Origin: Lacticaseibacillus parakribbianus
Lineage (GTDB): Bacteria; Bacillota; Bacilli; Lactobacillales; Lactobacillaceae
Direction: 5' to 3'
Assembly (NCBI RefSeq): GCF_025490915.1
Contig: NZ_JANQBA010000005.1
Span: 124,001 to 188,000 of the forward strand
DNA: 64,000 bases
Shown piece by piece: positions 18,810-60,430 of this stretch. The notes under the pieces are model-generated. The model worked only from the letters and a program-made list of their open reading frames with translations, was not told the origin of the DNA and ran no database searches. Position 1 is the stretch's first letter. Each line of letters begins with the position of its first letter. The translations under genes were made by a program, and so were the position numbers.

Positions 18810-18838
18810 TTGACGGTTGAAATGGCAGGGCTTACACT
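18810..18838 (+). promoter_or_regulatory. Promoter of structured RNA copy A
   Basis: TTGACG (18810-18815), a 17-bp spacer and TACACT (18833-18838). The paralogous RNA at 60 kb has the same TTGACG and the same 17-bp spacing. Confidence 0.8.
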
Positions 18839-18844
18839 AGCCTC

Positions 18845-19251
18845 AGATGATTATCAACGGGCAGGGAAAACGCCGCGGCCGCGGCGCTTGCAACTCTACT
18901 GTCTATGGGGAACGGTCCGGGACATAAGCATTCCCAGTACCCCACTCATGCCATGCCGAACCAGGCAACAACGTCGACGTTTTCGTGCAACGGTCCCCTC
19001 CGATTGGGACCGACCACCAGGGTGTGGACCACCATCCCCCTGCCGCACAGTCCGGTGCCTACTCGCTTGCGAGGTAGCTGCGGTGCCGACTGACAGGGGG
19101 CTTGTCCCACGATACCGCGCAGCGGTGCGATGATCGGGGGACGAAAGCACAAGAACGCAAGTCATCAGCAAAAAATACCGAGGCTGCCGCGGGATGATAC
19201 CCTGCGGTGGCTTCGGCGCGTCCGGCGCAGTGTCTGCGCCGGGCGTTTTTT
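18845..19251 (+). ncRNA. Large structured noncoding RNA, copy A (about 400 nt)
   Basis: An independent transcription unit with its own promoter and a strong terminator (19220-19251). It encodes no plausible protein. Shared with copy B are a perfect self-complementary palindrome (18871-18886), the block GGGGAACGGTCC, and a covarying hairpin with an AAGC loop (18919-18935). AGTACCCCAC, the hairpin CCTACTCGC..GAGGTAG (19058-19077) and the 3' GGTGGCTTCGGCGCG are also shared. An enclosing stem CCCCCTG/CAGGGGG (19036-19042 with 19094-19100) occupies the place of a different-sequence stem in copy B. I do not recognise RNase P, tmRNA, 6S, SRP, a riboswitch or an intron in it. Confidence 0.8.
19220..19251 (+). 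terminator. Terminator of RNA copy A
   Basis: TCCGGCGCA pairs with TGCGCCGG around a short loop, followed by TTTTTT at 19246-19251. Confidence 0.9.
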
Positions 19252-19421
19252 GGGTGATGCTGTCGCCCAAGTGAACTTGACTGACAGCACGAAAAATTGC
19301 GCCGCCGTCAAGTATACTTGAGAACGGCTGCCAAAACTTTGGTTGAGACGGTGAGGCGCTTGCGCCTGAGCCGGCCGGGCGGCAAAATGAGAGGGACAAA
19401 TTTTTTGGAGGCCTAGTTGGA

Positions 19422-21374
19422 ATGGCACAGTTGAGTTACAGCGCATACCTTGAGGCGACACGCGTTGACCATCACATCAGCGTGAAGACGCTTTGCCGCT
19501 ACGTCGGCTTCTCGCCTGCGACCTATCACCGCATTTTGCGCGGGGAAAGCAGCCCCAAGGTTCGCGAGTTCTGCCGGTGGGTCGACTTCATGATGATGAC
19601 ACCGGGGTCGGAAATCGGAGAGAAGCTGAATGCGGACTACTTTCGGTTGACCACGGTGGAGGACCGCACGTCGATGCAGTTGCTCGCGGCTGCGCCACTG
19701 CGTGACGCGGCCGGACTGCGGGAGACGCTCACGGCGGTGGCGGCGCAGACGGGGCAAAGCGACTACGACCTGCTGGTGGCCCTGATCGACCTGCGTCAGG
19801 CCGCCCCGGCAGCGCGGCCGGCCATCGCCCGGCGGGTGGTCACAGCGCTGCGGCAACGGCAGCACTGGGCCTACTTCGAGCTCCGGTGCTTTTTAGTAGC
19901 GGCGCCTTACCTCAGCTGGTCCATCGTATCGCACTGCATGGCGCAGTACGCGACTGGGACGGCGTTCGGGGCGGCCGGTGAGGCGGCCCAGCGCCACTCT
20001 CTGGGCTACCAAGAGCTGCTTTTGATTGCCTATGTGCGTGCTGCGGCCAATACCCACATCTGCGAGAACGTGGTTCAGGCGTGTTCGTGGTACGGCCAGA
20101 CCTTCAGCGACGCTAGCCAGATGGTGTACGACGGGCGGGTGTTCGAGGGGCTGACGCAGGACCTGGTGACGCTGTTTGCCCAGCCGCAGGCGACCCGAAC
20201 CGCCATCGCCGCGGTGTGTGAGCCGCGGGTGACGGTGTTGACCGCGTGGCAGGACGATGCGCCGCACCGCGTGACCGACCGCGTGGCGCGGCTGCAGGAG
20301 GCGCTGTTGGCCGGGGGGCCTTACCACCACGACGGCCGCCTGCGCCACCGGCCGGCCGCTAAGCCGGTGCCGGTTCAGCGTGACGTGAACTTCGGACTGC
20401 GTTTCACCGCGCTGCGTCGTGGCAAGGGCGTCAGCGTCAAGGACCTGTGCCGCCTGTCTGGCATCTCACGCGGGGTCTACCGCCGCTTTTGCGACGGCAG
20501 CAACACGCTGCGGCTGGATCAGCTGTGCCGGCTTTTGGACTGCTGTCACATTGGGCTGCCAGAGTTTTTCTCCTTCAAAGATCTGCCAGGCAACCAGCGC
20601 ATTCGTGATGTCATGCAGTCGCACCTTGTGATTCGGTTGCGGGAGGGGCTGACCGCGGCCGATGAGGACGAGACGGAGCAACTCCACCAGTTCGCATTGG
20701 ATGCAGGCAGCCCGTTCTTCCTGAACCTGTGGCGGCTGGTTCGCACCGTTGACGTCGAAGGTAGCGACGATAATTCGGCGGCACTGCCAATCGCGCAGGC
20801 GGCCCTGGCACAGCTGATGAGCTACGACACTTGGAACTACCACGACTACATCCTGTTCGGCGACTTGGGGGGTTACGCCGACATGCAGACTGCGCGGCTG
20901 GTGATGCAGCGGCTGCTCAAGTCGATTGCGACCCCCAACTGCGTAATCACGCAGGTGCCGATGCAGACGAACGTGACGCTGTGGGTGAACCTGCTCCTAG
21001 TGGCCTACCGCACCCACGAGGTTGCCGCGGTGCTGACGGTGACCGATGCGATTCAAGGACTAGCCACGCCGCAGCAAGGCGGTCCCAACACGCTCGCGTG
21101 GAGTATCCTGCGGCGCTATGCGGCCTATGTGGCGGCGGTGGTGACCGCCGGGCCGACCAAGGCTGCGCCGGCGTGGCTGCGGCTGTGCCAGCAGATTAAG
21201 ACACTGATGACGGAGCCGCAGCCGGTGCTGTTGGCGATTCTGGGCGGCAACCACGACCTGCTGATGGCCTCGGACCTTTGGCCGGTCGCATGCGAGGCCG
21301 GCAACCCGCCGCAGGTGGTGACCGAAGAGGACCGCGAGTTCATGGGTACGGCAAAAAGGGCCCAGCCGCAGTGA
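19422..21374 (+). CDS. Double-length Rgg-like regulator with two helix-turn-helix domains
   Basis: This 650-residue protein looks like two Rgg/MutR-type regulators fused head to tail. An HTH-like domain sits at residues 1-55 (ISVKTLCRYVGFSPATYHRIL) and a second at about 313-372 (VSVKDLCRLSGISRGVYRRFC). Each is followed by roughly 250 mostly helical residues. Rgg proteins dimerise and usually respond to short peptides; a covalent dimer would be unusual. The ATG follows TTGGAGG. No membrane segments are seen. A single-length Rgg follows in the same direction. I could not find a clear pheromone gene beside it. Confidence 0.7.
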   Translation: MAQLSYSAYLEATRVDHHISVKTLCRYVGFSPATYHRILRGESSPKVREFCRWVDFMMMTPGSEIGEKLNADYFRLTTVEDRTSMQLLAAAPLRDAAGLRETLTAVAAQTGQSDYDLLVALIDLRQAAPAARPAIARRVVTALRQRQHWAYFELRCFLVAAPYLSWSIVSHCMAQYATGTAFGAAGEAAQRHSLGYQELLLIAYVRAAANTHICENVVQACSWYGQTFSDASQMVYDGRVFEGLTQDLVTLFAQPQATRTAIAAVCEPRVTVLTAWQDDAPHRVTDRVARLQEALLAGGPYHHDGRLRHRPAAKPVPVQRDVNFGLRFTALRRGKGVSVKDLCRLSGISRGVYRRFCDGSNTLRLDQLCRLLDCCHIGLPEFFSFKDLPGNQRIRDVMQSHLVIRLREGLTAADEDETEQLHQFALDAGSPFFLNLWRLVRTVDVEGSDDNSAALPIAQAALAQLMSYDTWNYHDYILFGDLGGYADMQTARLVMQRLLKSIATPNCVITQVPMQTNVTLWVNLLLVAYRTHEVAAVLTVTDAIQGLATPQQGGPNTLAWSILRRYAAYVAAVVTAGPTKAAPAWLRLCQQIKTLMTEPQPVLLAILGGNHDLLMASDLWPVACEAGNPPQVVTEEDREFMGTAKRAQPQ

Positions 21375-21610
21375 GGTGCGGTGAAGTGCGATTGAGGTGA
21401 AGGAAGTCGCAGAAAGGCACATCGGGCCGCAAAAAGACACAATTGAGGGCCCCAATCACGGTCAGAAAGTTGGCTAGCCGTGGTTGGTGCCTTTTGAGTG
21501 CCACCGGTCATGCACGAATTGAGGCGTTTTTGCACATTCTGATTCACTCGCACCCATCCTAGGGCCGCGCCGCCTAACATGGAGTCGTTGAGAGAAAGGA
21601 GGCGCGGCAC

Positions 21611-22453
21611 ATGGCCGAGGAGACGCAGCTGGACTTTGGGGGAACCTTCCATCACCTGCGCGTGGCGCGAGGCAAAACGCTGAGCGAGGCGGCGGACGGG
21701 GTGCTCAGCGCCCAGGCGCTGTCGAACTTTGAGCGCAACAATGCCAACATTTCGTTCGCGCGGCTGGTCGCGATTCTCAATCACCTGGGCTTCAGCGTGA
21801 CCGAGTTCACCCGGGCCTGTTTTCGCGAAACCGACCGCGGCGTCTTGCTGCACGGTCTGATCACCGCCCGGATCACGCTGCGGCTGGATGCGGTGCGGCT
21901 GGCCAACGCCGCGACCATCGTGGCCAACAGCCAAAGCGTGTTCAACGACGCCTTTGACCGCCAGCTTGAGGTCGTGATCGCCGGACTGCGCCAGGGTAGC
22001 CTGGCGCCACGCAAGCAGGCGGCCCTCGGCAAGTACTTCGCGGCGCAAAAAATCTGGCCGACCGCGGTCATCCAACTGTTCACGCTGGGCTGTGACCTGC
22101 TGGCCGACGCCGATTTTCTGCGGCTGATTCGCACGTTCGAGGACTACATCGACTTCAGCGCGGTGGTCGACCCGGCGGTGATCGAGGCGCGTGGTATGTG
22201 TGCCTTGATGATCCTGCGCCGGGCCCAGCGCCTCGGCCTCACCGGCATCGTCAACCGCCTTTTGCGCGAGCTGCAGGGCGAGTGGTCCCAGCTGGCCTAC
22301 ACCCAGCAGGCCGTTTTGACCTATTACACCGCCTTGGCCGCAGCCGACCGCGGCGACGCGACGGCGCAGCGCAAAATCGCGTTGACCCGCAAGTATCGCT
22401 CCGAGCTGCTTTTGGGTAGCGACCTGCTGACGTTCTTCGAGCCGGCGAGCTAG
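21611..22453 (+). CDS. Rgg/GadR/MutR-family transcriptional regulator
   Basis: This 280-residue protein has an N-terminal XRE-type HTH (GGTFHHLRVARGKTLSEAADGVLSAQALSNFERN, about residues 10-45) and the helical C-terminal domain of the Rgg family. The ATG follows AAAGGAGG. These regulators often sense short hydrophobic peptides and act on nearby genes. It may have arisen from the same ancestor as the double-length gene upstream. A large terminator follows. Confidence 0.85.
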   Translation: MAEETQLDFGGTFHHLRVARGKTLSEAADGVLSAQALSNFERNNANISFARLVAILNHLGFSVTEFTRACFRETDRGVLLHGLITARITLRLDAVRLANAATIVANSQSVFNDAFDRQLEVVIAGLRQGSLAPRKQAALGKYFAAQKIWPTAVIQLFTLGCDLLADADFLRLIRTFEDYIDFSAVVDPAVIEARGMCALMILRRAQRLGLTGIVNRLLRELQGEWSQLAYTQQAVLTYYTALAAADRGDATAQRKIALTRKYRSELLLGSDLLTFFEPAS

Positions 22454-22465
22454 TCGCGATTATGT

Positions 22466-22532
22466 CAAAAGGCAGCCAGGGGAGTACCGACGTCGTCGAT
22501 TGACGGGTCGGGCTCACACCGGCTGCCTTTTG
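22466..22532. terminator. Bidirectional terminator between rgg and the GNAT gene
   Basis: Perfect 12-bp arms CAAAAGGCAGCC (22466-22477) and GGCTGCCTTTTG (22521-22532) lie between convergent genes. The loop is 43 nt and partly self-paired. T and A runs suit both strands. Confidence 0.85.
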
Positions 22533-22537
22533 GGTGA

Positions 22538-23206
22538 TCAGTTCAGCTTCAGGAAGTAGGTACGCTCGCGGTACTGCACCTCGATATCGAAGTCGTCAAG
22601 CGCCGCCGCGGTGAAAACCGTGAACCACTGCGGCTGCTCGGCGCGGTACAAGAGGCGCTGGCCGGCGTCGTCGGTGACCTCAAGTTCCCGGCTGGCCGAG
22701 TTGAAGTGCCAGTGGTGGTGCGGCGCCGGTGCGTCGCGGCGGGTGCCCAGCACCCGCCAGCTGTGGGCGATTTCAACCGCGCCAATGCCTTGGTAGAGGC
22801 GGTTGGCCGGTTCGTCGCTGCGGGTGAAAATTTCCACGAAGGCGGCCCCGCGTTCGCGCAGCGCAGCCAGGCAAGCGGTGAGCAAGGCGCGGCCGACGCC
22901 TTGGCCTTGGGTGGCCGGCGCGACGGCGACCACCTCGATGTAGCTGCCGGTGCCAAGATTTTGGACGTACAGGTCGCCTTGGGTGCGGTCGGCGTTGAAC
23001 ACGCCGGCGTCGATTAGCCCCACCAGCCGGCCGTCAAGCTCCGCGACCAGCTCGACCACGCTTGCGTAGCCGAAGTCGGCCTCGGGGTACTGCTCACGAA
23101 CGGGTTCGATCTGGTCGTTGAACTGCGAGCGGCTGTAGGATTCGGCGCGAACGGCGAGCCAGGCCGCGGCGTCGCTTGGCTGGTAGGGGCGAATGGTGAG
23201 TGACAT
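22538..23206 (-). CDS. GNAT family N-acetyltransferase
   Basis: This 222-residue protein has the acetyl-CoA motif VAVAPATQGQGVGRALL and the downstream NRLYQGIGA segment of GNAT enzymes in its first 150 residues. The last 70 residues are an extra region of unknown role. The ATG is preceded by GAGGAGG. The substrate is unknown. It is convergent with rgg and divergent from the small coiled-coil gene. Confidence 0.85.
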   Translation of the reverse strand: MSLTIRPYQPSDAAAWLAVRAESYSRSQFNDQIEPVREQYPEADFGYASVVELVAELDGRLVGLIDAGVFNADRTQGDLYVQNLGTGSYIEVVAVAPATQGQGVGRALLTACLAALRERGAAFVEIFTRSDEPANRLYQGIGAVEIAHSWRVLGTRRDAPAPHHHWHFNSASRELEVTDDAGQRLLYRAEQPQWFTVFTAAALDDFDIEVQYRERTYFLKLN

Positions 23207-23316
23207 GATGGACCTCCTCGGGATTGTCTGGCCCCCAGTATACCACTAGCCAAGGCGGCGTTGACATGCGATAATGGGCGCAAATACGCGTGGGGGCGCG
23301 ACAGGAGGACTGCGAC

Positions 23317-23568
23317 ATGACAGCGAAACAGGAACTGGCACGACTGGATGAGGAGCTGGCGCAGCTGACCGCGGCGCTGGACGCACAACACCGCGACGTG
23401 GCGGCGGGGATGACCGCGTATCTGGCGGCCGCGCCGACCGGCGACACACTGGGGCTGCGCCACCTGCTGGCGAGCCTTGAGCTTCGCGCCAACCAAATTG
23501 ACGAGCTCAACCGCACGCTGGCCATGAAGACCCGGATGCGCCAGCTGCTGCGCCTTGAGGTCAAGTGA
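23317..23568 (+). CDS. Small coiled-coil hypothetical protein
   Basis: This 83-residue, Leu/Ala-rich protein (ELARLDEELAQLTAAL.., NQIDELNRTLAMKTRMRQLL) is predicted to be almost wholly helical, with two coiled-coil segments around a short Gly/Pro-containing turn. It has no signal peptide. The ATG follows ACAGGAGG. I do not recognise a family. A partly conserved TTGACA lies about 50 bp upstream. Confidence 0.65.
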   Translation: MTAKQELARLDEELAQLTAALDAQHRDVAAGMTAYLAAAPTGDTLGLRHLLASLELRANQIDELNRTLAMKTRMRQLLRLEVK

Positions 23569-23587
23569 GCGGCGCCGCAGATTAAGG

Positions 23588-23616
23588 TTGTCTGCTTGCC
23601 CGTTTTCGCCTACAAT
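23588..23616 (+). promoter_or_regulatory. Promoter of the membrane protein/lipoprotein operon
   Basis: TTGTCT (23588-23593), a 17-bp spacer and TACAAT (23611-23616). Confidence 0.8.
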
Positions 23617-23642
23617 GTAGGCATAATTCGAATTTCAAAAAT

Positions 23643-23732
23643 AGTCGGCCGACTAAGTCATTATTGCTCAACCCACTCCGGACCTGCAGATATGCAACGG
23701 ATGGGGAATAATTGCGACGCGGCCGGCTTTTT
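23643..23732 (+). promoter_or_regulatory. Leader with attenuator-like terminator
   Basis: Arms AGTCGGCCG (23643-23651) and CGGCCGGCT (23720-23728) could pair across 68 nt, ending in TTTTT before the start codon of the downstream gene. The enclosed segment has short repeats (ATATGCAACGGATGG) but matches no riboswitch consensus I know. It probably controls read-through into the operon. Confidence 0.5.
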
Positions 23733-23761
23733 GTGTGTCGCCGTCGCTTGGAGGAGAAAGC

Positions 23762-25207
23762 ATGGAAAAGAAGCTTACCACGCCTTCGGATGACGCGGTC
23801 AAGGACTTGGCGGCGCAGCTGGAGGCGCTGAGTTCGGCGCCGGGGGATGCGGCGCCACTGGCGGGGAACGCGGCCGACGAGACGCCTGGTGCGACCACGC
23901 CGACGCCAGGCGCTGCGGCGCCAGCGAAGGCTGCCCCGCCGGCGGAGACCGCTGATGCTGGCGCGGCGAACCCGGTTGCGGCTGTCGCGGGTACCGGCGG
24001 TTCGAACACCGCCGCCTCCGTCACGGATGCCGGTGATTCGAACACCGCCGCCTCGGCGTCTGGCAGTGCTGATTCGAACACCGCCCCGGTCGGCTCGAGC
24101 ATTGCCACTGTGACCCAGAACCCACAGCCGACCGGCGACGCCGACCTGCAGGCACAGATCGACGAACTGCGGCGCCAGCTGGCGGCGCAGACCCCGGCCG
24201 GCTCGTTCACCGCGGCGCTGGCACCGAACCAGAAGCACTGGATTCAGGCATTGCGGTTCTTTCAGGCCAATCCGCTGATGCTGTTCGCCGTCGCGTGGGT
24301 CGCCGTGTTCCTGCCGGCCTGGTGGGCAACTTGGCTGATGCTGGCCTACATGGTGCTGTGCTACGCCTACCCGCTTTTGACGCGCAAGACGCGCTTTGGC
24401 TGGGACCGGCGGCTGGACGACTGGCTGGCCGATCCGGAGGTCAGGCGCCGGCAAAACCAGCAGCAGCTGGCCCGGCTGAACCAGGTCAAAGACGAGCTGA
24501 GCCAGCAGGCCGGCGCCTTGGCCGACAGCGTGAAAAACGCCAGGGGCCCGGTGGCCGCGGGTAGCGCCGACGCGGCCACGAGTAGCGCCCAGGCGACAGG
24601 CGACCAGGCGACCAGCGCCCAGGCGACCGGCGCCGCCGGAACGCAACCGGTCGGCGGTCAGTCGGGGTCGGCAGCCGCGGCTGGGCAACCCATCCAGGCC
24701 GCTGCGGTGGCCCTGCCGCACCAGCCGCTTTTCACCAACAATCTGGAGCTGTGGCTGGGCCTGGTGGTCGGCGTGGTCGGCTACCTCGCCCAGCAGCAAG
24801 GCGGCCAGGGCGTGACCGATGGCATCGGCCAGCTGCAGGCGGTGATTCAGTCCGGCTCGCTGTCAAGCGACGGTTACGTGTTCATCTGGGGTTACCTGGC
24901 GGTGCGGATCGGCGTTTTGGCTGTGGTTGGGGGGCTGGTCAAGGGGCTGATGCACAAGGCCAACGGCGGGGCGATTCTCAAGGCACTGGCCGTTTTGGCC
25001 GGTGCGGCGGCCGCGGCTGCGGCCAGCTACGTCTACGCGCATCCCTTCGCCAGCGCCTACCAGGCGGCCCGGGCGGCCTACGAAAGCGGCGCGAGCCTGG
25101 ACGATATCGGCAACCTGGCGACGATGGTGCAGTACCTGCCGGTGGCCGTGATGGTGGTTTACGGCGTCGGCATCCTGCTCAACCTGCTGGGGAGGAACCA
25201 CGAATGA
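23762..25207 (+). CDS. Multi-pass membrane protein with long low-complexity N-terminus
   Basis: This 481-residue protein begins with about 150 Ala/Thr/Pro/Gly-rich residues including near-repeats of the form DSNTAAS. Two or three membrane helices follow (about 165-205), then a charged segment, another Ala/Gln/Gly-rich linker, and a C-terminal block of about four helices. The family is unknown to me. The ATG follows GGAGGAG. It overlaps the next gene, a lipoprotein, by 4 bp, so the two are probably partners at the membrane. The low-complexity parts are rich in GCC/GCG codons. Confidence 0.7.
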   Translation: MEKKLTTPSDDAVKDLAAQLEALSSAPGDAAPLAGNAADETPGATTPTPGAAAPAKAAPPAETADAGAANPVAAVAGTGGSNTAASVTDAGDSNTAASASGSADSNTAPVGSSIATVTQNPQPTGDADLQAQIDELRRQLAAQTPAGSFTAALAPNQKHWIQALRFFQANPLMLFAVAWVAVFLPAWWATWLMLAYMVLCYAYPLLTRKTRFGWDRRLDDWLADPEVRRRQNQQQLARLNQVKDELSQQAGALADSVKNARGPVAAGSADAATSSAQATGDQATSAQATGAAGTQPVGGQSGSAAAAGQPIQAAAVALPHQPLFTNNLELWLGLVVGVVGYLAQQQGGQGVTDGIGQLQAVIQSGSLSSDGYVFIWGYLAVRIGVLAVVGGLVKGLMHKANGGAILKALAVLAGAAAAAAASYVYAHPFASAYQAARAAYESGASLDDIGNLATMVQYLPVAVMVVYGVGILLNLLGRNHE

Positions 25208-26691
25208 AACCTTTGAAGCGATGGCTCCTGCTCGGCACCGCGGCGCTGGGGCTGATTCTGACCGCCTGCGGCAAGCCGGTGGCCGACCGGGTGCCGGGGG
25301 TGGATCAGATGAGCTACACGATTACCGGCAAGGACGCACATGGGGCCAAGGAGACCATGACCGTTCAGCTCAACGCGGATCACACCGCCGATATTTTGAT
25401 GGTCGGCAAGACGCCGACCATCGAATACCCGGGGTATAGCGATGGGCCCAACAAGTACGACGCGGTCAAGTATACGAGCGGCAAAATTAAGGGTAAGGGC
25501 CGGCACCTGACGATTACCGCAACCTGGTCGGGTCAGTACGCGCGGCAGCTCAAGGCCAAGAAGGGCAAGAAGCGTGCCATCTATCTGATCGGGAAGTACG
25601 CGACCAAGGAAGACGACGCGACGATCGAGCTGACCTTCGATAAGCACTACCGGCTAGTCAAGTTCAACGGCGAGAAGCAGAACAAGAAGGAAAAAGTTGA
25701 GGGCCCATCCGTCAGCACGATGCCCAGCGCCAAGTCGCAGTACCTGAGGCTGGCGCGTAAGTACCAGGCCGTGGCCGGAAACTCGTATCAACTGAGCAAT
25801 TCGGTGGGCAAAAGCGTCACCACGTTCACCGACAAGCGTTTTTACATGTACGTCAAAACGCCGACCACCGTCCTACCCGCGGCCTGGCGCAAGGTGGCCC
25901 GGGCGGGTGGCGAGCTCAGCCCCGCGGTTGCCGCTGGCACGGATCAAGTCATGGCGGAAGGCACCTACCACCTCAATCTGCTGACGGGCAAGCTGAAGTG
26001 GACGCCGACGCGCATCACCCCGACCTACCACAACATGGTGAAGCAGACCTACAGTGGGAAACACCAGGTGGCGGAAGGCGAGAAGCGCAACGGCAAGTTC
26101 GTGACGCAGCAGATACAGCTGGACAAGGCCGACACCACGGACTTCGGCCGCAAGCTCAAAGCGCCGGTCAAGCTGCCGACCGTGGCCAAGTGGACGGCCG
26201 GGCTGCGCAAGCAGGCCGTCGACGCCTCGGCGGCGGCTCTGCCACCGCACAAGCAGGCGGTGCCCAAGAGCGAGTGGCAAAACCTGTTCACCGGCATCTC
26301 CCCGGTGGTTGAGCAAAACGCCAGCCACCGGCTGCGCAAGAAGGACGCGATGTACTCCAAGTTCAAGGGCGAGGGGACGTCGTACAGCTGGGAGCTCAGC
26401 AACGACAGCCAAACCGACGGCGGTGACAAGGTCGTCGGGGTGTGGAAGGATAACGGCAACCTCCTGATCGAGCTGGCCCTAGACGATGAGCCCGAGACCT
26501 TCAAGATCCTGCTGTCCGACACGGACGGGGATGGGTTCACCACCCCGATCACGACCTACAAGCTGACCTACGCCGGCGTGACGGCGAAGTTCGGCCTGAG
26601 CGCCGGCAAGTACGTTGGGCATGGCCCAGTGCCAACGGTTTTCTACAATTCCCAGGCCTTCATGTACGACCGGTATCAGGCTAACAACTAG
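25204..26691 (+). CDS. Hypothetical lipoprotein
   Basis: This 495-residue exported protein has a signal peptide ending in the lipobox LTAC (C22). The rest is Lys/Thr-rich and beta-prone, with no recognisable catalytic motif. The start was set at the ATG overlapping the upstream stop (ATGA); the frame extends further upstream only as a shadow of the membrane protein gene. Codon use is less GC-biased than that of the partner gene. Function unknown. Confidence 0.75.
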   Translation: MKPLKRWLLLGTAALGLILTACGKPVADRVPGVDQMSYTITGKDAHGAKETMTVQLNADHTADILMVGKTPTIEYPGYSDGPNKYDAVKYTSGKIKGKGRHLTITATWSGQYARQLKAKKGKKRAIYLIGKYATKEDDATIELTFDKHYRLVKFNGEKQNKKEKVEGPSVSTMPSAKSQYLRLARKYQAVAGNSYQLSNSVGKSVTTFTDKRFYMYVKTPTTVLPAAWRKVARAGGELSPAVAAGTDQVMAEGTYHLNLLTGKLKWTPTRITPTYHNMVKQTYSGKHQVAEGEKRNGKFVTQQIQLDKADTTDFGRKLKAPVKLPTVAKWTAGLRKQAVDASAAALPPHKQAVPKSEWQNLFTGISPVVEQNASHRLRKKDAMYSKFKGEGTSYSWELSNDSQTDGGDKVVGVWKDNGNLLIELALDDEPETFKILLSDTDGDGFTTPITTYKLTYAGVTAKFGLSAGKYVGHGPVPTVFYNSQAFMYDRYQANN

Positions 26692-26723
26692 GACGTGTGA
26701 CCGTCGCGGTTCCAGACGCGACC

Positions 26724-26755: not shown

Positions 26756-26764
26756 CCCGCCCCC

Positions 26765-26794: not shown

Positions 26795-26799
26795 GGGCC

Positions 26800-26913
26800 T
26801 CGTGATTATTTCACTCTACCTAAGACTCAGGGGGCGCAAGCCTTAATCATCCTGCCGAGGTGGTATCGGAACGATTAGATACCTCTATGTCTTGGTGGAC
26901 ATGGAGTTTTTTT
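26800..26913 (+). promoter_or_regulatory. L10 ribosomal protein leader with terminator
   Basis: The leader upstream of rplJ has the expected folded region, including the stem GAGGTGGTATC../..GATACCTC. It is followed by a terminator hairpin CTCTATGTC/GACATGGAG (26883-26906) and seven T residues. In Firmicutes the L10(L12)4 complex binds this leader and shifts it towards termination. Recognition is by position and overall form, not by a covariance search. Confidence 0.85.
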
Positions 26914-26952
26914 ATGCGAAAAACTTCAACAAACTAACAGGAGGTGAACCAA

Positions 26953-27951: not shown

Positions 27952-27954
27952 GTG

Positions 27955-37515: not shown

Positions 37516-37615
37516 TGCCGAAAGGCCTTGAGGCAATGACCGCCTTTCGAATTGTGTCAGGTCCGGAAGGAAGCAGCACTAAGAATCGCCGGTCATGTGC
37601 CTTAAGTTTTGTAGT
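37516..37615 (+). ncRNA. ffs: Signal recognition particle RNA (4.5S type)
   Basis: The conserved apical domain GTCAGGTCCGGAAGGAAGCA is present (around 37555-37580), with the GGAA tetraloop that binds Ffh. The arms CTTGAGGCAATGACCG and CGGTCATGTGCCTTAAG close a long hairpin. It is the short form without an Alu domain. The gene sits upstream of dnaX, a common Firmicute arrangement. The 5' end is approximate. Confidence 0.95.
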
Positions 37616-37623
37616 CAATGAGC

Positions 37624-50812: not shown

Positions 50813-50832
50813 AAGGCCGTACCAAAAATCTA

Positions 50833-50925
50833 AGGAGTAGGACCCACCGCGTTAAGTGCCGCCGGAACGGAATGTGAACGGCGGACGAAGGCATTGCCGC
50901 GGTGGTGGGTCCGCATTCGCCGCTT
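50833..50925 (+). promoter_or_regulatory. Tetrahydrofolate (THF) riboswitch
   Basis: The aptamer has the diagnostic CGCGTTAAGTG, the arm pair GCCGCC/GGCGG, GACGAAGGC and CGCGGTGG. It is closed by GGACCCACC/GGTGGGTCC (50840-50848 with 50904-50912) and followed by GCATTCGCC. These match the folT/folE THF riboswitch of lactobacilli and streptococci. A short hairpin and the weak AAAGGGG site follow, so control is probably at translation initiation. The downstream gene is folT, as expected. Confidence 0.93.
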
Positions 50926-52970: not shown

Positions 52971-52983
52971 AAGGACGAGTACT

Positions 52984-54189
52984 TTGAGTGAATTGATTCT
53001 AGCCTTCGAAAGCAGCTGCGACGAGACCTCGGTTGCGGTGATCGAAGACGGCACCCGCATTCTCAGCAACATCATCGCCACGCAGATCAACTCGCACAAG
53101 CGCTTCGGCGGCGTCGTGCCCGAGGTCGCCTCGCGCCACCACGTCGAGCAGATCACGGAGGTCATCGACCTGGCGCTGAAGGAGGCGCAGGTGACTTACA
53201 CCGACCTGACCGCGGTGGCCGTGACTTACGGGCCCGGTCTGGTCGGCAGCCTGATGATCGGCGTGACGGCGGCCAAAACGGTCGCGTTCGCGCATCACCT
53301 GCCGCTGATTCCGGTCAACCACATGGCCGGCCACATCTACGCCGCGCGGTTCGTGCAGCCCTTGACCTACCCGCTGCTGGCGCTGGTGGTGTCCGGCGGT
53401 CACACCGAGCTGGTGACGGTCGAAGCACCCGGTGAGTTCGCAATCATCGGCGACACCCGCGACGACGCGGCCGGCGAGGCTTACGACAAAATCGGGCGGG
53501 TGCTGGGCATTCCCTATCCCGCCGGCAAGGAGGTCGACCGGCTGGCGCATCTGGGGCAGGACACATTTCATTTTCCCCGGGCGATGGTCGACTCAGACGA
53601 CCTGGACTTTAGCTTCAGCGGCCTGAAGTCGGCGTTCATCAACACGGTTCACCACGCCGACCAGATCGGTGAGACCCTGAGCCGCGAGGACCTGGCGGCG
53701 AGCTTCCAGGCCGCGGTGATCGACGTCTTGGTGGCCAAAACCATGGCGGCCCTCGCCGCGCATCCGGTGGCCCAGCTGGTACTGGCCGGCGGGGTGGCGG
53801 CCAACCAGGGGCTTCGCGCGGCGCTGGCCGCGGCGCTGGCCACTCATCACCCCGACATCACGCTGATCGTGCCGCCGGTGCGGCTGACCGGCGATAACGC
53901 GGCGATGATCGGTGCGGCCGCTCACATCGAGCTGGCGCATCACCACCTGGCCGACGAGTCGCTGACCGCCACGCCGGGGCTGAACTTCCCCCGGGCCAGC
54001 GAGGCGGCACCAGCCGTTGCGACCGGCGCAAGCCAGCCGCAGCCGGTTGCGGCGGCGACCGAAGCGCAGGCCTTGGCCGGTCAAGCTCGCGCCGCCCAGA
54101 CCCCACAGCCCAAGTCCGGGCAACCCGACCTGGGCCACCGCGGCGAGGTCGTGCTGCCCAAGCCCGGACCGGTGCGGCGCCGCCGATAA
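52984..54189 (+). CDS. tsaD: tRNA N6-threonylcarbamoyltransferase TsaD with C-terminal extension
   Basis: This 401-residue enzyme has the start [18 protein letters not shown], metal-binding HMAGHIYAA, and [11 protein letters not shown]. It transfers the threonylcarbamoyl group to A37. Translation starts at TTG after AAAGGA. Usual TsaD length is about 340; here some 60 residues of low-complexity Ala/Gln/Pro-rich sequence follow the catalytic domain and end in GPVRRRR. The tail is probably disordered. Confidence 0.95.
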
Positions 54190-54196
54190 TCGAAAA

Positions 54197-54252
54197 ACAA
54201 ACAGCGGCCCGGTCGCACTTCGCAATGGAAGTGCGGCCGGGCCGCTGTTTGG
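54197..54252. terminator. Bidirectional terminator between tsaD and the ABC-F gene
   Basis: A very long near-perfect stem, AAACAGCGGCCCGG.. with ..CCGGGCCGCTGTTT, has A and T tracts on both sides and lies between convergent genes. Confidence 0.95.
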
Positions 54253-54255
54253 GCC

Positions 54256-56199
54256 TCAGGCGCCTTGCAGGTCCTCCAGCTTCAGGCTGGCGGTTTCCCA
54301 GGCGTCCTCGGTGGTCGCCACCTTGGCGTTGACGGCGTCGAGCTTGGTCTGCAGGTCCTGCATCTTGACGTAATCCGTCAACACGTCCGGGGCGGTCATC
54401 TGCTTTTGCAGCGCGTCGGCCTGATCGGCGAGCTCGCCCAGCTGGTCCTCAAGCGCCGCAACCTCGCGTTCGAGCTTGCGCTGGGCCTTTTGGTCGGCCT
54501 TGCTTTGCTGGTAGTCGACCTTGGCGGCGCTGACGGTCGGCCCCGCGACCGGGTCGGCGTTCTCCTGGGCCAGCGCCAGCTTTTCGGCCAGCTTCTCCTG
54601 GTAGTAATCCCAGTTGCCCAGGTACAGGTCGGCGCCGCTCGGCTCGACGGCGACGATGCTGGTCGCCAGCTGGTTGATGAAGTAGCGGTCGTGCGAGACG
54701 AACAGCACGGTGCCTTCAAAATCGGCCAGCGCCTGCTCGAGGACCAGCTTGGAGTTGATGTCCAGGTGGTTGGTCGGCTCGTCCAAAACCAGGAAGTTGT
54801 CGTGCTTCAAAGACAGCTTGGTCAGCTCCAGCCGCGCCTTTTGGCCGCCGGACAGGTCACCGACGCGCTTTTCGATGTCGTTGGCGTCGAACAGGAAGGC
54901 CGCCAGCGCGGAGCGGATGTCTTTTTCCGCCATGGTCGGGTGGTCGTCCCAGATCTCTGCGATCACGGACTTGTCCCAGTGCAGCTGGTGCTGGTCTTGG
55001 TCGTAGTAGCCGGTGGTGACGTTGGTGCCGAACCGCGCGTGGCCGGCCTTGAACGGAATCTGGCCGAGGACCGACTTGAGCAGGGTAGACTTGCCGACGC
55101 CGTTGTGGCCGATGATCGCAATGCGGTCGCCCTTGTTGACCTGGAAGTTGATCGGGCCGGCCATCACCGGGCCGTCCGGGTAGCCGACGGCGGCGTCTTG
55201 GACCTGCAGCACCTCGTTGCCCGAGGTTTTCTCGGGGCTGAAGCGAAAATGCACGGTCTTCTCCGGCCCGTCCGGCCGCGGCAAGCGGTCCATCTTCTCC
55301 AGCTGCTTGCGCCGGGCCTGGGCCTGCTTGGTCGAGCTAGCCCGGACGATGTTTTTGGCCACGAAGTCCTCGAGCTTGGCGATTTCCTCCTGCTGCTTCT
55401 CGTAGGCCTTCCACGCCAAGGCGCGGTTTTGGTCCTTTTGCTGCAGGTAGCCGGTGTAGTTGGTGGTGTAGTGAACCGCGCGGCTCGGGGTCAGCTCGTA
55501 AATCTCAGACACCACGTGGTCCAGGAAGTACTGGTCGTGGCTGACGGTGAGAATCGCGCCGGCGTAAGTCTTGAGGTAGCCCTCCAGCCAGCTGAGCGTG
55601 TCGATGTCCAGGTGGTTGGTCGGCTCGTCCAAGATGATGAGGTCGTGGTGCTCAAGCAACAGCTTGGCCAGGGCCAGCCGCGAGCGTTCGCCGCCGGACA
55701 GCGTGTGAATCGGCATCTGCCAGGTGCTTTCCGGGAAGTTGAAGCCGGTGAGGACGCCGCGAATTTCGGCGCGGTAGCCGTAGCCGTTGGCCGCTTCGAA
55801 GTCGTGTTGCAGCTGGTCGTACTGCTTCAGCACCGCGTCGTAGTCGGCCTGGTTCTCCGCGAGCTTAGGGTCGGCGATCGCGGCCTCGAGCTCGTGCATC
55901 CGCTGCTCCTGGGCAATCTGCTTGGCAAAAATCGTCAGCATTTCGTCGAAAATGTTGCGGCTGGAGTCGAGCCCCGAATCCTGCGCCAGGTAGCCGATCG
56001 ACATGTTCTTGCCGGTGGTGACCAGGCCGCCGTCTGCCGGGTCGAGCCCGGCGAGAATGCGCAGCAGGGTGGTTTTGCCGATGCCGTTGGGGCCGACCAA
56101 GCCGATGCGGGAGTTGGTCTGAACCTCAAGCGTGATGCCCGTGAATAAGTCGTTGCCGTCGAAGGTGCGGCCGACGCCTTGGGCCTGCATGATGATCAT
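54256..56199 (-). CDS. ABC-F family ATPase
   Basis: This 647-residue cytosolic protein has two ABC domains: Walker A GPNGIGKTT and GHNGVGKST, signatures LSGGERSRLALAKLL and LSGGQKARLELTKL. They are joined by a charged linker, with a C-terminal coiled coil (about 560-647). ABC-F proteins bind the ribosomal E site and adjust translation; some give antibiotic protection, but this looks like a housekeeping YdiF/Uup-type member. The ATG at 56199 lies 8 nt after AAAGGA. Confidence 0.92.
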   Translation of the reverse strand: MIIMQAQGVGRTFDGNDLFTGITLEVQTNSRIGLVGPNGIGKTTLLRILAGLDPADGGLVTTGKNMSIGYLAQDSGLDSSRNIFDEMLTIFAKQIAQEQRMHELEAAIADPKLAENQADYDAVLKQYDQLQHDFEAANGYGYRAEIRGVLTGFNFPESTWQMPIHTLSGGERSRLALAKLLLEHHDLIILDEPTNHLDIDTLSWLEGYLKTYAGAILTVSHDQYFLDHVVSEIYELTPSRAVHYTTNYTGYLQQKDQNRALAWKAYEKQQEEIAKLEDFVAKNIVRASSTKQAQARRKQLEKMDRLPRPDGPEKTVHFRFSPEKTSGNEVLQVQDAAVGYPDGPVMAGPINFQVNKGDRIAIIGHNGVGKSTLLKSVLGQIPFKAGHARFGTNVTTGYYDQDQHQLHWDKSVIAEIWDDHPTMAEKDIRSALAAFLFDANDIEKRVGDLSGGQKARLELTKLSLKHDNFLVLDEPTNHLDINSKLVLEQALADFEGTVLFVSHDRYFINQLATSIVAVEPSGADLYLGNWDYYQEKLAEKLALAQENADPVAGPTVSAAKVDYQQSKADQKAQRKLEREVAALEDQLGELADQADALQKQMTAPDVLTDYVKMQDLQTKLDAVNAKVATTEDAWETASLKLEDLQGA

Positions 56200-56291
56200 C
56201 TTATCGTTCCTTTCAGTCGTCAATAATTCCAGTTTACCATAGAAGGAATGTTCGGGTTGTGAAAAAAGTTGAGCATGACCGGTCTAGAAAC

Positions 56292-56320
56292 TTGCAGTCT
56301 TATGAAAAAGCGGTTACTAT
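56292..56320 (+). promoter_or_regulatory. rex promoter
   Basis: TTGCAG (56292-56297), a 17-bp spacer and TACTAT (56315-56320). Just downstream, GCATGC is repeated around TGACAATTTCACAATTGG, which holds a Rex-like half-site TTTCACAA. Confidence 0.8.
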
Positions 56321-56401
56321 ATTTTGAGAAGCATGCTGACAATTTCACAATTGGGCATGCAGAGCTGCCGCGCTGACGCGGCCAACTTAGGAGGCATATT
56401 G

Positions 56402-57058
56402 ATGGCTGAAACGATGATTCCCAAGGCCACGGCGAAGCGACTGCCGCTTTATTACCGCTACCTGAACTTCCTCGCGAACTCCGGCACCACCAAGGTTTCA
56501 TCCACGGAGCTGTCCGAGGCGGTCAAGGTGGATTCGGCAACCATTCGGCGCGACTTCTCGTACTTCGGGGCGCTGGGCAAGCGCGGCTACGGCTACGACG
56601 TGATGGACCTGATCAAGTTTTTCAAGAAAATTCTCAATCAGGACCGCCTGACCAACGTGGCGCTGGTCGGCGTCGGGAACCTCGGTCACGCGCTTTTGAA
56701 CTACAACTTCCGCCAGACCAACAGCATTCGCATCAGCGCGGCCTTCGACGTCAACCCCCAGCTGGCCGGCACCATTCAGGCCGGGGTGCCGGTGTACCCG
56801 ATGTCCGAGCTGGTGTCGCAGCTGCGCCAGCAGCAGATCGAAATCGTGATCCTGACCGTGCCGATTGACGCGGCCCAGGGCATCACCGACGACCTGGTGA
56901 AGGCCGGCATCAAGGGCGTGATGAACTTCACCCCGCTGCGCATCTCGGTGCCAAGCTACGTCCGGGTCCAAAACGTCGACCTGGCCACCGAGCTGCAGAC
57001 GCTGATTTACTTCCTGGAACACTACGGGCCGACCCTGCAGGACACCGAGGAAGACTAA
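56402..57058 (+). CDS. rex: Redox-sensing transcriptional repressor Rex
   Basis: This 218-residue repressor has an N-terminal winged helix ([24 protein letters not shown]) and a Rossmann domain ([16 protein letters not shown]). It senses the NADH/NAD ratio and represses fermentation and respiration genes when NADH is low. In this genome it could connect to the EET locus, which also handles NADH. The ATG follows GGAGG. Confidence 0.96.
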
Positions 57059-57066
57059 CATAAGCG

Positions 57067-57094
57067 AGCCGTCTCACAAAGAGGCGGCTTTTTT
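57067..57094 (+). terminator. Terminator of rex
   Basis: Nine-bp arms AGCCGTCTC/GAGGCGGCT are followed by TTTTTT. Confidence 0.93.
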
Positions 57095-57204
57095 GCTAGG
57101 CGAGCGTTGGCGGCGGCGGGACCGGGGAGACACGGGCTGTCGCGTTGACGTAAGCGCTACAAATTGGTATATTGACCTCGATCACTAGCGGGGAGGAATG
57201 CGGC

Positions 57205-57810
57205 ATGAGCCTAGACGGGCAGCGCGGCAGTCAGTTGTTGAAACAGCACCATTCAAGCGTCAGCCTCAAGCAGCGCCACGTGCTGCGACCGGGGCTGGGC
57301 CTGGGCCGCCCCGGGCTTGCGACCAAGCCGAGCCGAACGGCGCAGGCGGTGGCCGGCCACCGGGCGGCCCAGGCCGGGCGCTCGCGCGATGCGACCCAAG
57401 CGGAGCGCTCGCGCTTGGCGAAAGGCGGTGGCCCAAGCGAAGGCCTTGGCGGCCAGCGCAACGGTGGGCGGCAGACCGCCCGCAACGGGCAAGGCGCCGC
57501 TCACGACCGGGCGACCCAGGGCACGACTGGCGGGGCCAGCGAGCGCCAACCGCGCAATGCCGCCAAGCAGTCGCACCGGCAGGCCAACGCCACCCACGTG
57601 CGGATGCCGACCGCGGCCCCGGCGCAACCGCGTGGTGCCGCGGCTCACAGCGATCAGGCGCGATCCAAACCAGCGGCGCAACCGCGAGCCAACCCGGCCA
57701 AGGGCAACACCGCCAAGTCGGCCCAGCAGCCCGGCGGCGGGATCAACTGGGGGACACTGATTCTCGGGGTGGTCGCGATCGTGTTGCTCTGGCTTTATTT
57801 CATGGGATGA
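57205..57810 (+). CDS. Basic low-complexity tail-anchored protein
   Basis: This 201-residue protein has about 175 residues rich in Ala, Gly, Arg, Gln and Pro with no predicted fold. A single C-terminal membrane helix follows (WGTLILGVVAIVLLWLYFMG). The strongly positive cytosolic part might bind nucleic acid or acidic lipid. It starts at an ATG after GGGAGG and is 9 bp before an NfeD-like gene, so it belongs to the flotillin operon. No family recognised. Confidence 0.72.
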   Translation: MSLDGQRGSQLLKQHHSSVSLKQRHVLRPGLGLGRPGLATKPSRTAQAVAGHRAAQAGRSRDATQAERSRLAKGGGPSEGLGGQRNGGRQTARNGQGAAHDRATQGTTGGASERQPRNAAKQSHRQANATHVRMPTAAPAQPRGAAAHSDQARSKPAAQPRANPAKGNTAKSAQQPGGGINWGTLILGVVAIVLLWLYFMG

Positions 57811-57819
57811 GGTGAGTCC

Positions 57820-58212
57820 ATGCAGGCATTGTGGAATCAGCCCTGGTGGGTGCTGGCCTTGGTCGGCCTCCTCGTGGCGATTATCGGTGGCGCCTTCTTG
57901 TGGGCGCTTTTCTCCCTGGTCGCGCTGCCGATTCTGGCGGCCTTGAGCCGGCTGTTTCGCGGCGTGGATAACAGCACCGCCGAAAGCAGCAAGGCCTACC
58001 TGGTCGGCCGGCTCAGCCTGACGATTCCGGTCGGTGGCCTTGGCGAGGTGATGGTCGTCGGCAACGGCCGGGCCCGGCAGACCTACGCCGCTCGCGCCTA
58101 CGACCCCGGCACCCGCATCGCGCAAGGCACCCGGGTCGTCGTCATCGAGCTCAAGGCCGGGGTGGCGTATGTGCAACCGGTTCGCGATCCGGCCACGACG
58201 ACCACGAAATAA
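57820..58212 (+). CDS. NfeD-like short membrane protein
   Basis: This 130-residue protein has one or two N-terminal membrane helices (residues 9-48) and a C-terminal OB-fold-like domain (VGRLSLTIPVGGLGEVMV.., IAQGTRVVVIELKAGVAYV). This is the NfeD1b layout that accompanies flotillin genes. It probably helps FloT assemble at membrane microdomains. It begins 9 bp after the tail-anchored protein gene. Confidence 0.82.
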   Translation: MQALWNQPWWVLALVGLLVAIIGGAFLWALFSLVALPILAALSRLFRGVDNSTAESSKAYLVGRLSLTIPVGGLGEVMVVGNGRARQTYAARAYDPGTRIAQGTRVVVIELKAGVAYVQPVRDPATTTTK

Positions 58213-58272
58213 GGGGTTTTACAGTCCGGTCGGCGCCTTTGCACCGGCCACACGCTACTAAAAGGAAGTGTC

Positions 58273-59787
58273 ATGATGGAAAACTACTCGAGTCTGATCA
58301 TCATCGGCGTCATCGCCGTGCTAGTCATTTTGTTCTTTGTCTTTTTGGTCACGCACCGCAAGACGGCGCTGCCCAACGAGGTCTTGATCATCTCCGGGGC
58401 GATGATCGGCGGCAAGCACTCTTACCAAGACACCAACGGCAACAAGGTGAAGCTGATCACCAACGGCGGGGCGTTCATCCTGCCGATCGTGCAGCGCTGG
58501 GACGCCTTGTCGCTCAACACCCGCACCATCGAGGTCGCCACGCCCGAGGTTTACACCAAGGCCGGGGTGCCGATCAAGGTCGATGGGACGGTCATCCTGA
58601 AGATCGGCTCCTCGCTTGAGGAGATCGCGACGGCCGCCGAGCAGTTCCTGGGCAAGGAGGACGCGCAGATCAACGGCGAAGCCACCGAAATTCTGGAAGG
58701 CCATCTCCGCGCCATTTTGGGGACGCTGACCGTCGAGGACACCTACCAAAACCGCGAGGTATTCGCCGAGAAGGTGCAAGAGGTCGCAAGCTCCGACCTG
58801 GCCAAGATGGGCCTGCAGATCGTGTCCTTCACCATCAAGGACATCACCGACAGCAACGGCTACTTAGACAGCCTGGGCAAAAAGCAGATCGCCGAGGTCA
58901 AAAAGAACGCGGCGATCGCCGAGGCCGAAGCCGACAAGGAGCGGCGCATCAAGCAGGCCGAGGCCGACCAGCTGGCCCAGGAAGAAGAGATCAAGCGCCA
59001 GACGCAGGTCGCCGACTCCAAACGCGCCCAGGCCGTGCAGGTCGCGGAGTTCGAAAAGGAACAGCAGATCGCCAAGGCCCAGGCGGATCAGGCCTCGATT
59101 GCCGAGCAGATGAAGGCCAAGCAGGTCCAAAAGGAAAAAGACATCGAGCTGGCGCAAAAAGACGCCGACCTGCAGGAAATGACGCTGAACGCGACCGTGC
59201 GTAAGCAGGCCGACGCCAACCGCTACCAGGCCGAGCAGGAGGCCGCCGCGCAAAAGGCGGCCAGCATCGCTAAGGCCCAGGCCGAAGCCGAGCAGGTGAA
59301 GCTGTCGGCCGAAGCGTCTGCCGAGCAGGTCAAGCTGCAAGCGGCCGCCCAGGCGGAGCAGGTTCGCCAGGCCGCCGACGCCGCGGCTCACCAAGTCGAG
59401 GTGCAGGGGCAAGCCGAAGCCAAGGCCACGGAGCTGACCGGTAACGCGACGGCGGCCAAGACCCGCGCCGTCGGGCTGGCCGAGGCCGAGGCGACCGAGA
59501 AGAAGGCCGCCGCCCTGGCCAAAATGAACGAGTCCGGGAAGCTGCAGATGGTGCTGGATGTCCTGCCGGCGCTGTTTGCCGCCAACGCCGACGCCTACAA
59601 GAACGTCGACCACGTGACGCTGTACGGCCAAGGCGACGTGACCGGCCAGTCGGTCGAGAACATGACCAAGCAGCTGGCGATGATTCACCAGATGACCGGC
59701 ATCGACCTGGAGCAGGTGATCAACAGCACCATCAGCACCAAGGCCGGCACCAAGCCGGTGGCCGACGCGGTTCAAAAGGCCGAGTAG
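58273..59787 (+). CDS. floT: Flotillin FloT
   Basis: This 504-residue protein has an N-terminal membrane segment (8-26), a PHB/SPFH domain (about 30-200) and a long Ala/Glu/Gln/Lys-rich coiled coil (about 205-410) with the EAEA repeats of flotillins. A C-terminal helical segment follows. It organises functional membrane microdomains. The start has two adjacent ATGs after AAAGGAAG. Confidence 0.94.
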   Translation: MMENYSSLIIIGVIAVLVILFFVFLVTHRKTALPNEVLIISGAMIGGKHSYQDTNGNKVKLITNGGAFILPIVQRWDALSLNTRTIEVATPEVYTKAGVPIKVDGTVILKIGSSLEEIATAAEQFLGKEDAQINGEATEILEGHLRAILGTLTVEDTYQNREVFAEKVQEVASSDLAKMGLQIVSFTIKDITDSNGYLDSLGKKQIAEVKKNAAIAEAEADKERRIKQAEADQLAQEEEIKRQTQVADSKRAQAVQVAEFEKEQQIAKAQADQASIAEQMKAKQVQKEKDIELAQKDADLQEMTLNATVRKQADANRYQAEQEAAAQKAASIAKAQAEAEQVKLSAEASAEQVKLQAAAQAEQVRQAADAAAHQVEVQGQAEAKATELTGNATAAKTRAVGLAEAEATEKKAAALAKMNESGKLQMVLDVLPALFAANADAYKNVDHVTLYGQGDVTGQSVENMTKQLAMIHQMTGIDLEQVINSTISTKAGTKPVADAVQKAE

Positions 59788-59906
59788 GCGCCGCGGCGCC
59801 GGGCGAGGCCCAGCCAGGCCCCGGCTCAGCTACCGGGTGCGGCACGACACGGGCCGGGTCGCGGTTCAACGCAGTGCAAAGCGCATGCGGCACCGGCCGA
59901 GGCACG

Positions 59907-59942
59907 AAAAAGGCGCATCCCCAGCGGGGATGCGCCTTTTTG
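59907..59942 (+). terminator. Terminator of the flotillin operon
   Basis: Long perfect arms (59907-59922 and 59926-59941) with an AGC loop are followed by a T-tract. Confidence 0.95.
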
Positions 59943-60004
59943 GGTGCCGAGTGGTTCGCCGGCCGGTTAGCGAGAGACGGGTAGAATTAGGCGAGTCAAA
60001 ATGC

Positions 60005-60033
60005 TTGACGGCAAATTGGTCCGGTGTTAAGCT
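60005..60033 (+). promoter_or_regulatory. Promoter of structured RNA copy B
   Basis: TTGACG (60005-60010), a 17-bp spacer and TAAGCT (60028-60033). The -35 and spacer length are identical to those of copy A. Confidence 0.8.
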
Positions 60034-60039
60034 ATCCGC

Positions 60040-60430
60040 GAATGATCAGTCACGTGCGGGGATGGCGCTGCGGCCGCAGCGCTGGCACCTCTGCCGCATA
60101 GGGGAACGATCCGGAGCGCAAGCGCCTCTAGTACCCCACCCATGCCAAGCCGCAGTGTAGCGCCACACGGCTTTCAAACTCAAGAGTTTTAGTGCAACTC
60201 CTTCAACTTAGGAGGAGATACCAGGGTAAAGGATTTTACCACCCCACCGCTCGCACCAAGCTAGGACCTACTCGCAACTCGAGGTAGCTGCGGCCCCGGC
60301 GAGCGCGGTGGTGGCACCACCATAGTAAGCAATGGACAGCAACGTAACCGAATTAGGCCAAGGCCACCGGACTGGGTGAGTCCGGTGGCTTCGGCGCGGC
60401 CGCCGCACCCCCATCGTTGCGGCGGCTTTT
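60040..60430 (+). ncRNA. Large structured noncoding RNA, copy B (about 390 nt)
   Basis: Homologous to the RNA at 18.8 kb. It carries a perfect 18-nt palindrome GCGCTGCGGCCGCAGCGC (60065-60082) and GGGGAACGATCC. Next is the hairpin GGAGCGC-AAGC-GCCTCT with compensatory changes relative to copy A, then AGTACCCCAC. The enclosing stem CCACCGCTCGC/GCGAGCGCGGTGG (60244-60254 with 60299-60311) surrounds the hairpin CCTACTCG..CGAGGTAG. The 3' end shares GGTGGCTTCGGCGCG with copy A. A terminator ends it. It contains several short stop-riddled frames only. Confidence 0.8.
60399..60430 (+). terminator. Terminator of RNA copy B
   Basis: Nine-bp arms GCCGCCGCA/TGCGGCGGC are followed by TTTT. Confidence 0.85.

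Follow-up and report, generated by a model that had tools for sequence, protein, structure and literature searches.

Two related noncoding stretches of DNA from Lacticaseibacillus parakribbianus raise the question of what kind of gene they represent, and why there should be more than one. Both lie in the window analysed here, a stretch of 64,000 nt (contig NZ_JANQBA010000005.1, forward strand, positions 124,001-188,000; contig C28 of the genome referred to below as G000). An earlier note on this DNA described them, as copies A and B, as paralogous genes for a structured noncoding RNA with promoters and terminators of their own, and suspected a family within the genome. We find that A and B belong to a dispersed family of about 56 copies of a putative large structured RNA gene, found so far only in Lacticaseibacillus. 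We lean, with restrained confidence, towards reading them as the RNA half of an RNA-protein module that has been amplified to high dosage.

Both copies could be located in the sequence, with their signals, where they had been described. Copy A is read on the forward strand, immediately behind the terminator (18,756-18,783, terminator scan) of an upstream gene which we take, by eye, to be rplA-like. Its promoter region (18,797-18,838; sequence, promoter scan, and a 31-row class profile) has a conserved 5' edge, GTGAG, at 18,797, and comprises a -35 box TTGACG (18,810-18,815), a spacer of 17 nt, and a -10 box TACACT (18,833-18,838). The structured RNA, whose start is placed about 7 nt past the -10 box, would span 18,845-19,217 and end with the conserved hairpin CCGAGGC...GGTGGCTTCGG, and the terminator scan gave an intrinsic terminator at 19,218-19,252, with a stem at 19,218-19,246 and then a T tail. 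Copy B, on the same strand, has a promoter region at 59,991-60,033 (sequence and class profile) with the conserved edge GCGAG at 59,991, TTGACG at 60,005-60,010, 17 nt of spacer, and TAAGCT at 60,028-60,033. Its predicted RNA covers 60,040-60,398 (start inferred; alignment), and a terminator-like hairpin at 60,399-60,426 is followed by TTTT (feature 60,399-60,430, from the sequence). Neither signal of copy B was flagged by a simple promoter and terminator scan, because the -10 box is weak and the terminator loop is above the size limit of the scan. Aligned with each other, the two copies agree in 268 of 435 letter pairs (62%). The hairpin GGGACAT-AAGC-ATTCCC of copy A (18,919-18,935) corresponds to GGAGCGC-AAGC-GCCTCT of copy B (60,113-60,129), and the four compensatory base pairs reported around a fixed AAGC loop are visible on comparing A with B and in the alignment of copies.

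How far does the family extend? Against its own genome, copy A gave 43 matching pieces by blastn and copy B gave 49, which merge into 53 distinct places. R1, a covariance model of the RNA core built from 25 sequences with 16 base pairs and hence mainly a sequence model, was then scored on the best 99 of 1342 candidates and found 56 matches in the 2.82-Mb genome, namely 53 strong ones (>113 bits) and three weak ones (C1:92421, C32:46374, and C1:309044). The first two of these weak matches were also hit by a DNA probe from the class of the sister species. The core match lies at C28:142937-143082 for copy A (window 18,937-19,082) and at C28:184131-184292 for copy B. The suspicion of a family is borne out far beyond two copies. 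Among the other genomes of the genus, R1 gave 14 matches in the sister genome G006 and none in the remaining 28. Further classes belong to other species: R2, a model of another RNA class, found nine matches each in G017 and G013, eight in G024, and none in 27 others, and a DNA probe of a third species class gave seven matches in each of G020 and G021 and none in 28 others. In some other species the RNA gene is about 310 nt long.

The copies share a common layout. A promoter (TTGAC, 16-18 nt, and TA...T at the right position) is present in 50 of the 53 aligned copies; L067 has none, and the other two without a scored promoter, L079 and L081, are truncated at contig ends. Conservation begins abruptly at GNGAG, 13-14 nt 5' of the -35 box, and no column farther upstream reaches 60%. 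Copies of one RNA class share a conserved spacer between the two boxes of the promoter, and this spacer differs from class to class. Conserved blocks then alternate with variable stems before a long hairpin ending in GGTGGCTTCGGCGCG; from the inferred start to the end of this hairpin, the RNA measures 346-394 nt in the 47 copies measured, the terminator being extra. By eye, most copies also have a terminator hairpin, whose arms vary in sequence but still pair. Sites resembling the catabolite responsive element (cre) of CcpA overlap the promoters of six of eight copies of the class of G013, G017, and L. camelliae (L153, L160, L161, L168, L169, and L177; shuffled P <= 0.006), and one such site was seen in a G004 copy. 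For the species of that class this is a hint of carbon catabolite control. Six promoters of the own species gave P values from 0.046 to 1.0, and catabolite repression was for this reason dropped from the main explanation.

Evidence for structure comes from comparison of the copies. In an alignment made from sequence alone, of 32 copies taken from two species, 88.9% of the cells of 23 named pairs are paired, versus 37-45% when the partner columns are slid, and cells with changes on both sides number 57 versus 16.8 in shuffles; the pairs were picked with the sequences in view, which tilts the result towards the structure. Pairing in helix 4 is only 73%, owing to a shift of one class within the alignment. 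In another class, of seven copies, 97.8% of cells pair and both-side changes occur in 18 cells versus 5.1, the structure being that of RNAalifold on that very alignment. This covariation supports the predicted RNA helices, and the pairs proposed from A and B are largely kept in the copies of the own and sister species. As had also been claimed, the copies do not seem to encode a protein. No conserved reading frame was seen in them, and the copies differ by one-base indels, which throw the frame out of register. The longest open reading frame (ORF) starts within the first ten bases in 22 of 52 copies and elsewhere in 30 (median 81 aa, versus 63 in shuffles). An ATG stands close to the 5' end in several RNA classes, and no conserved frame was seen behind it. 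The protein-coding reading was accordingly rejected.

A clue to what the RNA could be for is given by the genes that adjoin some of its copies. Three neighbours of RNA copies in G000 encode related proteins, one of which was scanned against Pfam without a match. A search of 30 genomes of the genus for this partner protein turned up five copies in G000 and another three in G006, and a profile search adds one more in G000 at C12:199658. Eight of these nine loci have an R1 match divergently adjoining the protein gene, six of them strong (C3, C12:134 kb, C10, and C30 in G000; C5 and C1:1517 kb in G006) and two weak (C1:92 kb in G000; C1:941 kb in G006). Since the protein played no part in the choice of the RNAs behind R1, this linkage is an independent test. 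Most RNA copies are solo, i.e., without the partner protein; the home-made codon score used for gene calling overlooked at least one neighbour, namely the gene of the partner protein at L076. Solo and linked copies recur in the other classes, with the protein divergently adjoining 9 of 26 RNAs in G013/G017/G024 (17 solo) and 4 of 14 in G020/G021 (10 solo). The probes for both of these classes came from RNAs adjoining the protein, which makes adjacency there a matter of construction and leaves the recurrence of solo copies as the one independent result.

A profile search for the protein family across 330 genomes of the taxonomic family, from 40 genera, found it in nine genomes, every one of them in Lacticaseibacillus; in a tenth genus member, G024, the protein was seen as an RNA neighbour. 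In a protein scan of GTDB contigs, L. hegangensis, L. camelliae, and L. jixianensis together supplied eight loci. The partner proteins of distant species form one family (hhalign 96.9%, E 1.9e-10), with a unit of about 280 aa and an apparently duplicated form of about 500-580 aa in most copies of the own and sister species. No credible match was obtained in Pfam, NCBIfam, or PHROGs, where single-member matches were weak (best E 0.0022, a tape measure protein), and the best E-value in a PDB sequence search was 0.74. Between the divergent protein and RNA genes, a stretch TGTAACGAAATCTG is common to L047, L060, and L117, upstream of the RNA promoter, and it is possibly part of the promoter of the protein gene or an operator.

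Comparison with the sister species indicates how the copies may have evolved. Seven of the 14 RNA loci in G006 have at least one neighbour in common with an RNA locus in G000. At five orthologous sites the RNAs are 46-68% identical, versus 86-98% for the best paralogue within the genome; two further syntenic pairs were left out, as L099 has no RNA start and lacks its 5' part, and as the G000 copy at L079 is cut at the contig end. Flanking DNA at the syntenic sites is mostly 80-91% identical where aligned, and lower in parts of L073/L103 and L076/L107. Low identity between orthologues together with high identity between paralogues is the pattern of concerted evolution, or of replacement by local copies, as judged from these alignments. 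At the syntenic sites L089/L097 and L076/L107 the partner protein is only about 38-45% identical, against 96% for the second neighbour at L089/L097, and therefore the protein diverges, or is replaced, very fast. Copies also appear to have been gained. No RNA lies in the 650 bases behind rplA in any of five other genomes examined, which is most simply explained by a gain of copy A in the own lineage, and in G006 the two genes that flank locus B are present while the locus itself is empty. By eye, some neighbours of the RNA copies are presumably housekeeping genes. Where half would be expected at random, 43 of 50 copies of G000 as called, and 42 of 50 after correction of L076, have a co-directional gene upstream (three copies without an upstream gene call are left out); the figures are 14 of 17 for the solo copies of G013/G017/G024 and only 4 of 10 for those of G020/G021. 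An orientation bias was hence rejected as a general rule, being strong in two clades and absent in the third.

An RNA-protein partnership would best explain the linkage, the extra RNA genes, the class-wide promoters and terminators, and the homogenisation. The basic unit could be a two-part module, made up of the RNA gene and a divergently transcribed gene for a rapidly evolving protein, which would bind its RNA so that the pair acts as a ribonucleoprotein. The RNA gene would then have been copied to about 56 places in its own lineage, mostly behind co-directional genes, and the copies would be kept alike by gene conversion or ongoing replacement, as might be expected if all RNA copies must fit the current version of the protein and if RNA dosage matters. 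The most likely function would be that of an abundant trans-acting regulatory or protein-sequestering RNA, with copy number setting the dosage. Transcription of the RNA, its binding to the protein, and a regulatory role are what we infer from the DNA.

Nevertheless, several observations weigh against this reading. R1 has no match to the R2 class and R2 none to the R1 class, and all that joins the RNAs of different species classes is the homologous protein next to them, together with faint motifs picked out by eye. At the ninth protein locus (L237, G000:C12:199658-200416), the divergent noncoding stretch, again by eye, has promoter-like and terminator-like signals and is of another RNA-like class; a further ORF of similar look adjoins the partner gene there. 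Protein loci in G004, G008, G012, G020 (C72), and G021 (C27) have an unmodelled divergent noncoding stretch recognised by eye only, and those at G021 C15 and G020 C28, near contig ends, were left unjudged. As for structure, further pair types in the alignment of 32 copies are fewer than in shuffles (15 vs 17.9), and pairs with both-side change are only slightly more numerous than there (7 vs 5.1), a value of 7 being reached by 8 of 500 shuffles. Single-sequence folding energy is ordinary for copies A and B (z of -0.9 and -1.2, with -3.5 to 0.4 for 12 random segments of the window) and for seven of eight relatives, the exception being L153 (z of -5.2); single-sequence folding was set aside as evidence, and the structural evidence is therefore purely comparative. 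An AlphaFold2 model from eight partner sequences has low confidence (mean predicted local distance difference test score 52.1, predicted template modelling score 0.33). The strand order in its first part gives an impression of likeness to the oligonucleotide/oligosaccharide-binding fold, and homology to single-stranded DNA-binding protein was rejected on a negative profile comparison, so that the fold gives no support for nucleic-acid binding.

The main rival explanation is that the RNA is a selfish dispersing element, a promoter-RNA-terminator cassette mobile behind gene ends, for which the protein would serve as a mobility helper at master copies and the solo copies would be non-autonomous offspring. 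The 56 matches compared with 14 in the sister, the empty sites at loci A and B, the sharp 5' edge of conservation, and the co-directional upstream genes of G000 and of the G013/G017/G024 solos would all be in line with such an element. However, only 4 of the 10 solo copies of G020/G021 follow this orientation, and synteny is seen for seven of the 14 sister copies and for several in the G013/G017/G024 class. Among the neighbours, which were not systematically annotated, neither a transposase nor a reverse transcriptase came to notice, and the partner protein matches no such family. Neither copy A nor one partner protein was matched in a phage collection (50,697 records for the search with copy A) or a plasmid collection, from both of which records close to the own genome may have been left out; a phage or plasmid origin was set aside on these results. 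We consider the selfish element rather unlikely, though worth serious attention, and it and the sequestering or regulatory reading are not mutually exclusive. If the copies were instead untranscribed dispersed repeats, gene-like only in look, such as repetitive extragenic palindromes or miniature inverted-repeat transposable elements, their dispersed intergenic positions and the other palindromic repeats behind rplA in several species would be accounted for, but the promoter hexamers in 50 of 53 copies, the covariation, and the linkage to a protein family would not, and this explanation seems very improbable.

A toxin-antitoxin-like addiction pair, with the protein as toxin, the divergent RNA as its specific antidote, and solo RNAs as spare antidotes, would suit the linkage of RNA and protein and their very fast joint divergence (about 38% identity of the partner at L089/L097). 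Dozens of spare antidotes are, however, hard to explain, and no toxin family or known toxin domain, as would mark a type III toxin-antitoxin system, was found for the partner in Pfam, NCBIfam, or PHROGs (PADLOC was not searched), so that we hold this explanation to be improbable; one weak single-member NCBIfam match pointed to a repressor/antitoxin family (E 0.0048). Least credible of all is membership, in diverged form, in a known class of large RNAs, for which size and complexity speak and nothing else. Models of ROOL, GOLLD, OLE, raiA, and group II introns are contained in Rfam. Scanned against Rfam 15, copies A and B gave nothing at gathering score and no E-value below 1 in permissive scans, with no credible match to a group II intron or any other family, in keeping with the earlier statement that no known class could be assigned. 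A scan of the window at gathering score returned only a tetrahydrofolate (THF) riboswitch, an L10 leader, and a signal recognition particle (SRP) RNA, with no ROOL, GOLLD, OLE, or raiA match. Eighteen related loci gave no gathering-score match and no convincing weak one, the lowest E-value being 0.067 for SgrS in L176, on the strand opposite to the RNA. Membership of a known class is thus largely refuted at the level of sequence and structure, and the likeness in size to ROOL, GOLLD, and OLE is no evidence of kinship.

Comparison with characterised systems helps to place the proposed module. CsrB-type RNAs sequester the protein CsrA through a GGA-repeat architecture, and they resemble the present RNA in length and in the proposed principle of protein titration. 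Group IIC introns sit directly behind terminators in sense orientation, a placement that is shared here; unlike them, the RNA has no Rfam match and has its own promoter and terminator, and its partner protein is without a match to any reverse transcriptase family. Among the published systems we have seen, the closest working analogue is formed by the FopS small RNAs and RbpB of Bacteroides, 14 paralogous noncoding RNAs with their own promoters and an RNA-binding protein, for which seed pairing of the RNAs with mRNAs and global RNA binding by RbpB are described (PMC11697453). Many paralogous RNA genes with promoters of their own, here at the sequence level, and an associated protein are common to both systems, whereas the present family has about 56 copies, a larger multi-helix RNA, and a divergently linked, putatively RNA-binding protein (PMC11697453). 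ROOL and GOLLD are likewise large structured bacterial RNAs; they are described as encoded in phages or prophages, form RNA-only cages, and have poorly understood functions, GOLLD occurring also in Lactobacillales, whereas the present copies have no Rfam match, seem to lie among chromosomal genes, and have a linked protein (PMC12286853). That paper also cites, as a concomitant report, a long noncoding RNA of 520 nt from Lactobacillus salivarius (PMC12286853), which its own report presents as stable, abundant, and without definitive function (PMC5643018). It too is a long noncoding RNA of a lactic acid bacterium, but it is encoded on a megaplasmid and species-specific (PMC5643018).

Other features of the window deserve mention. 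Directly downstream of copy A, positions 19,422-21,374 encode a 650-aa protein with two helix-turn-helix (HTH) regions, and positions 21,611-22,453 a 280-aa HTH protein. A gene similar to the downstream HTH gene of copy A follows rplA in G008 (DNA match), and a different sequence stands there in the sister G006. Behind the rplA terminator, three species (L210, L212, and L213) have a separate palindromic repeat, which by eye measures roughly 110-130 nt. The Rfam matches elsewhere in the window are the THF riboswitch at 50,831-50,924, the L10 leader at 26,801-26,921, and the bacterial small SRP RNA at 37,520-37,616.

Neither the RNA family nor its linked protein has a credible family match in the libraries searched, and no description of the RNA or the partner protein was found in the open-licence literature of PubMed Central. 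To our knowledge, no multicopy family of bacterial regulatory RNAs is as large as the present one, with its roughly 56 copies of a 350-390-nt RNA gene in a single genome of 2.8 Mb. We raise, as a tentative and by no means assured possibility, that a lineage-specific protein and its divergent RNA form an undescribed system, in which the RNA would spread as promoter-RNA-terminator cassettes behind gene ends and conversion would keep the copies matched to the current protein. Given the linkage, the homogenisation, and the empty sites, the function, mobility, and protein binding of this putative module would be directly testable, and L. hegangensis, L. jixianensis, and L. camelliae are named carriers of its relatives.

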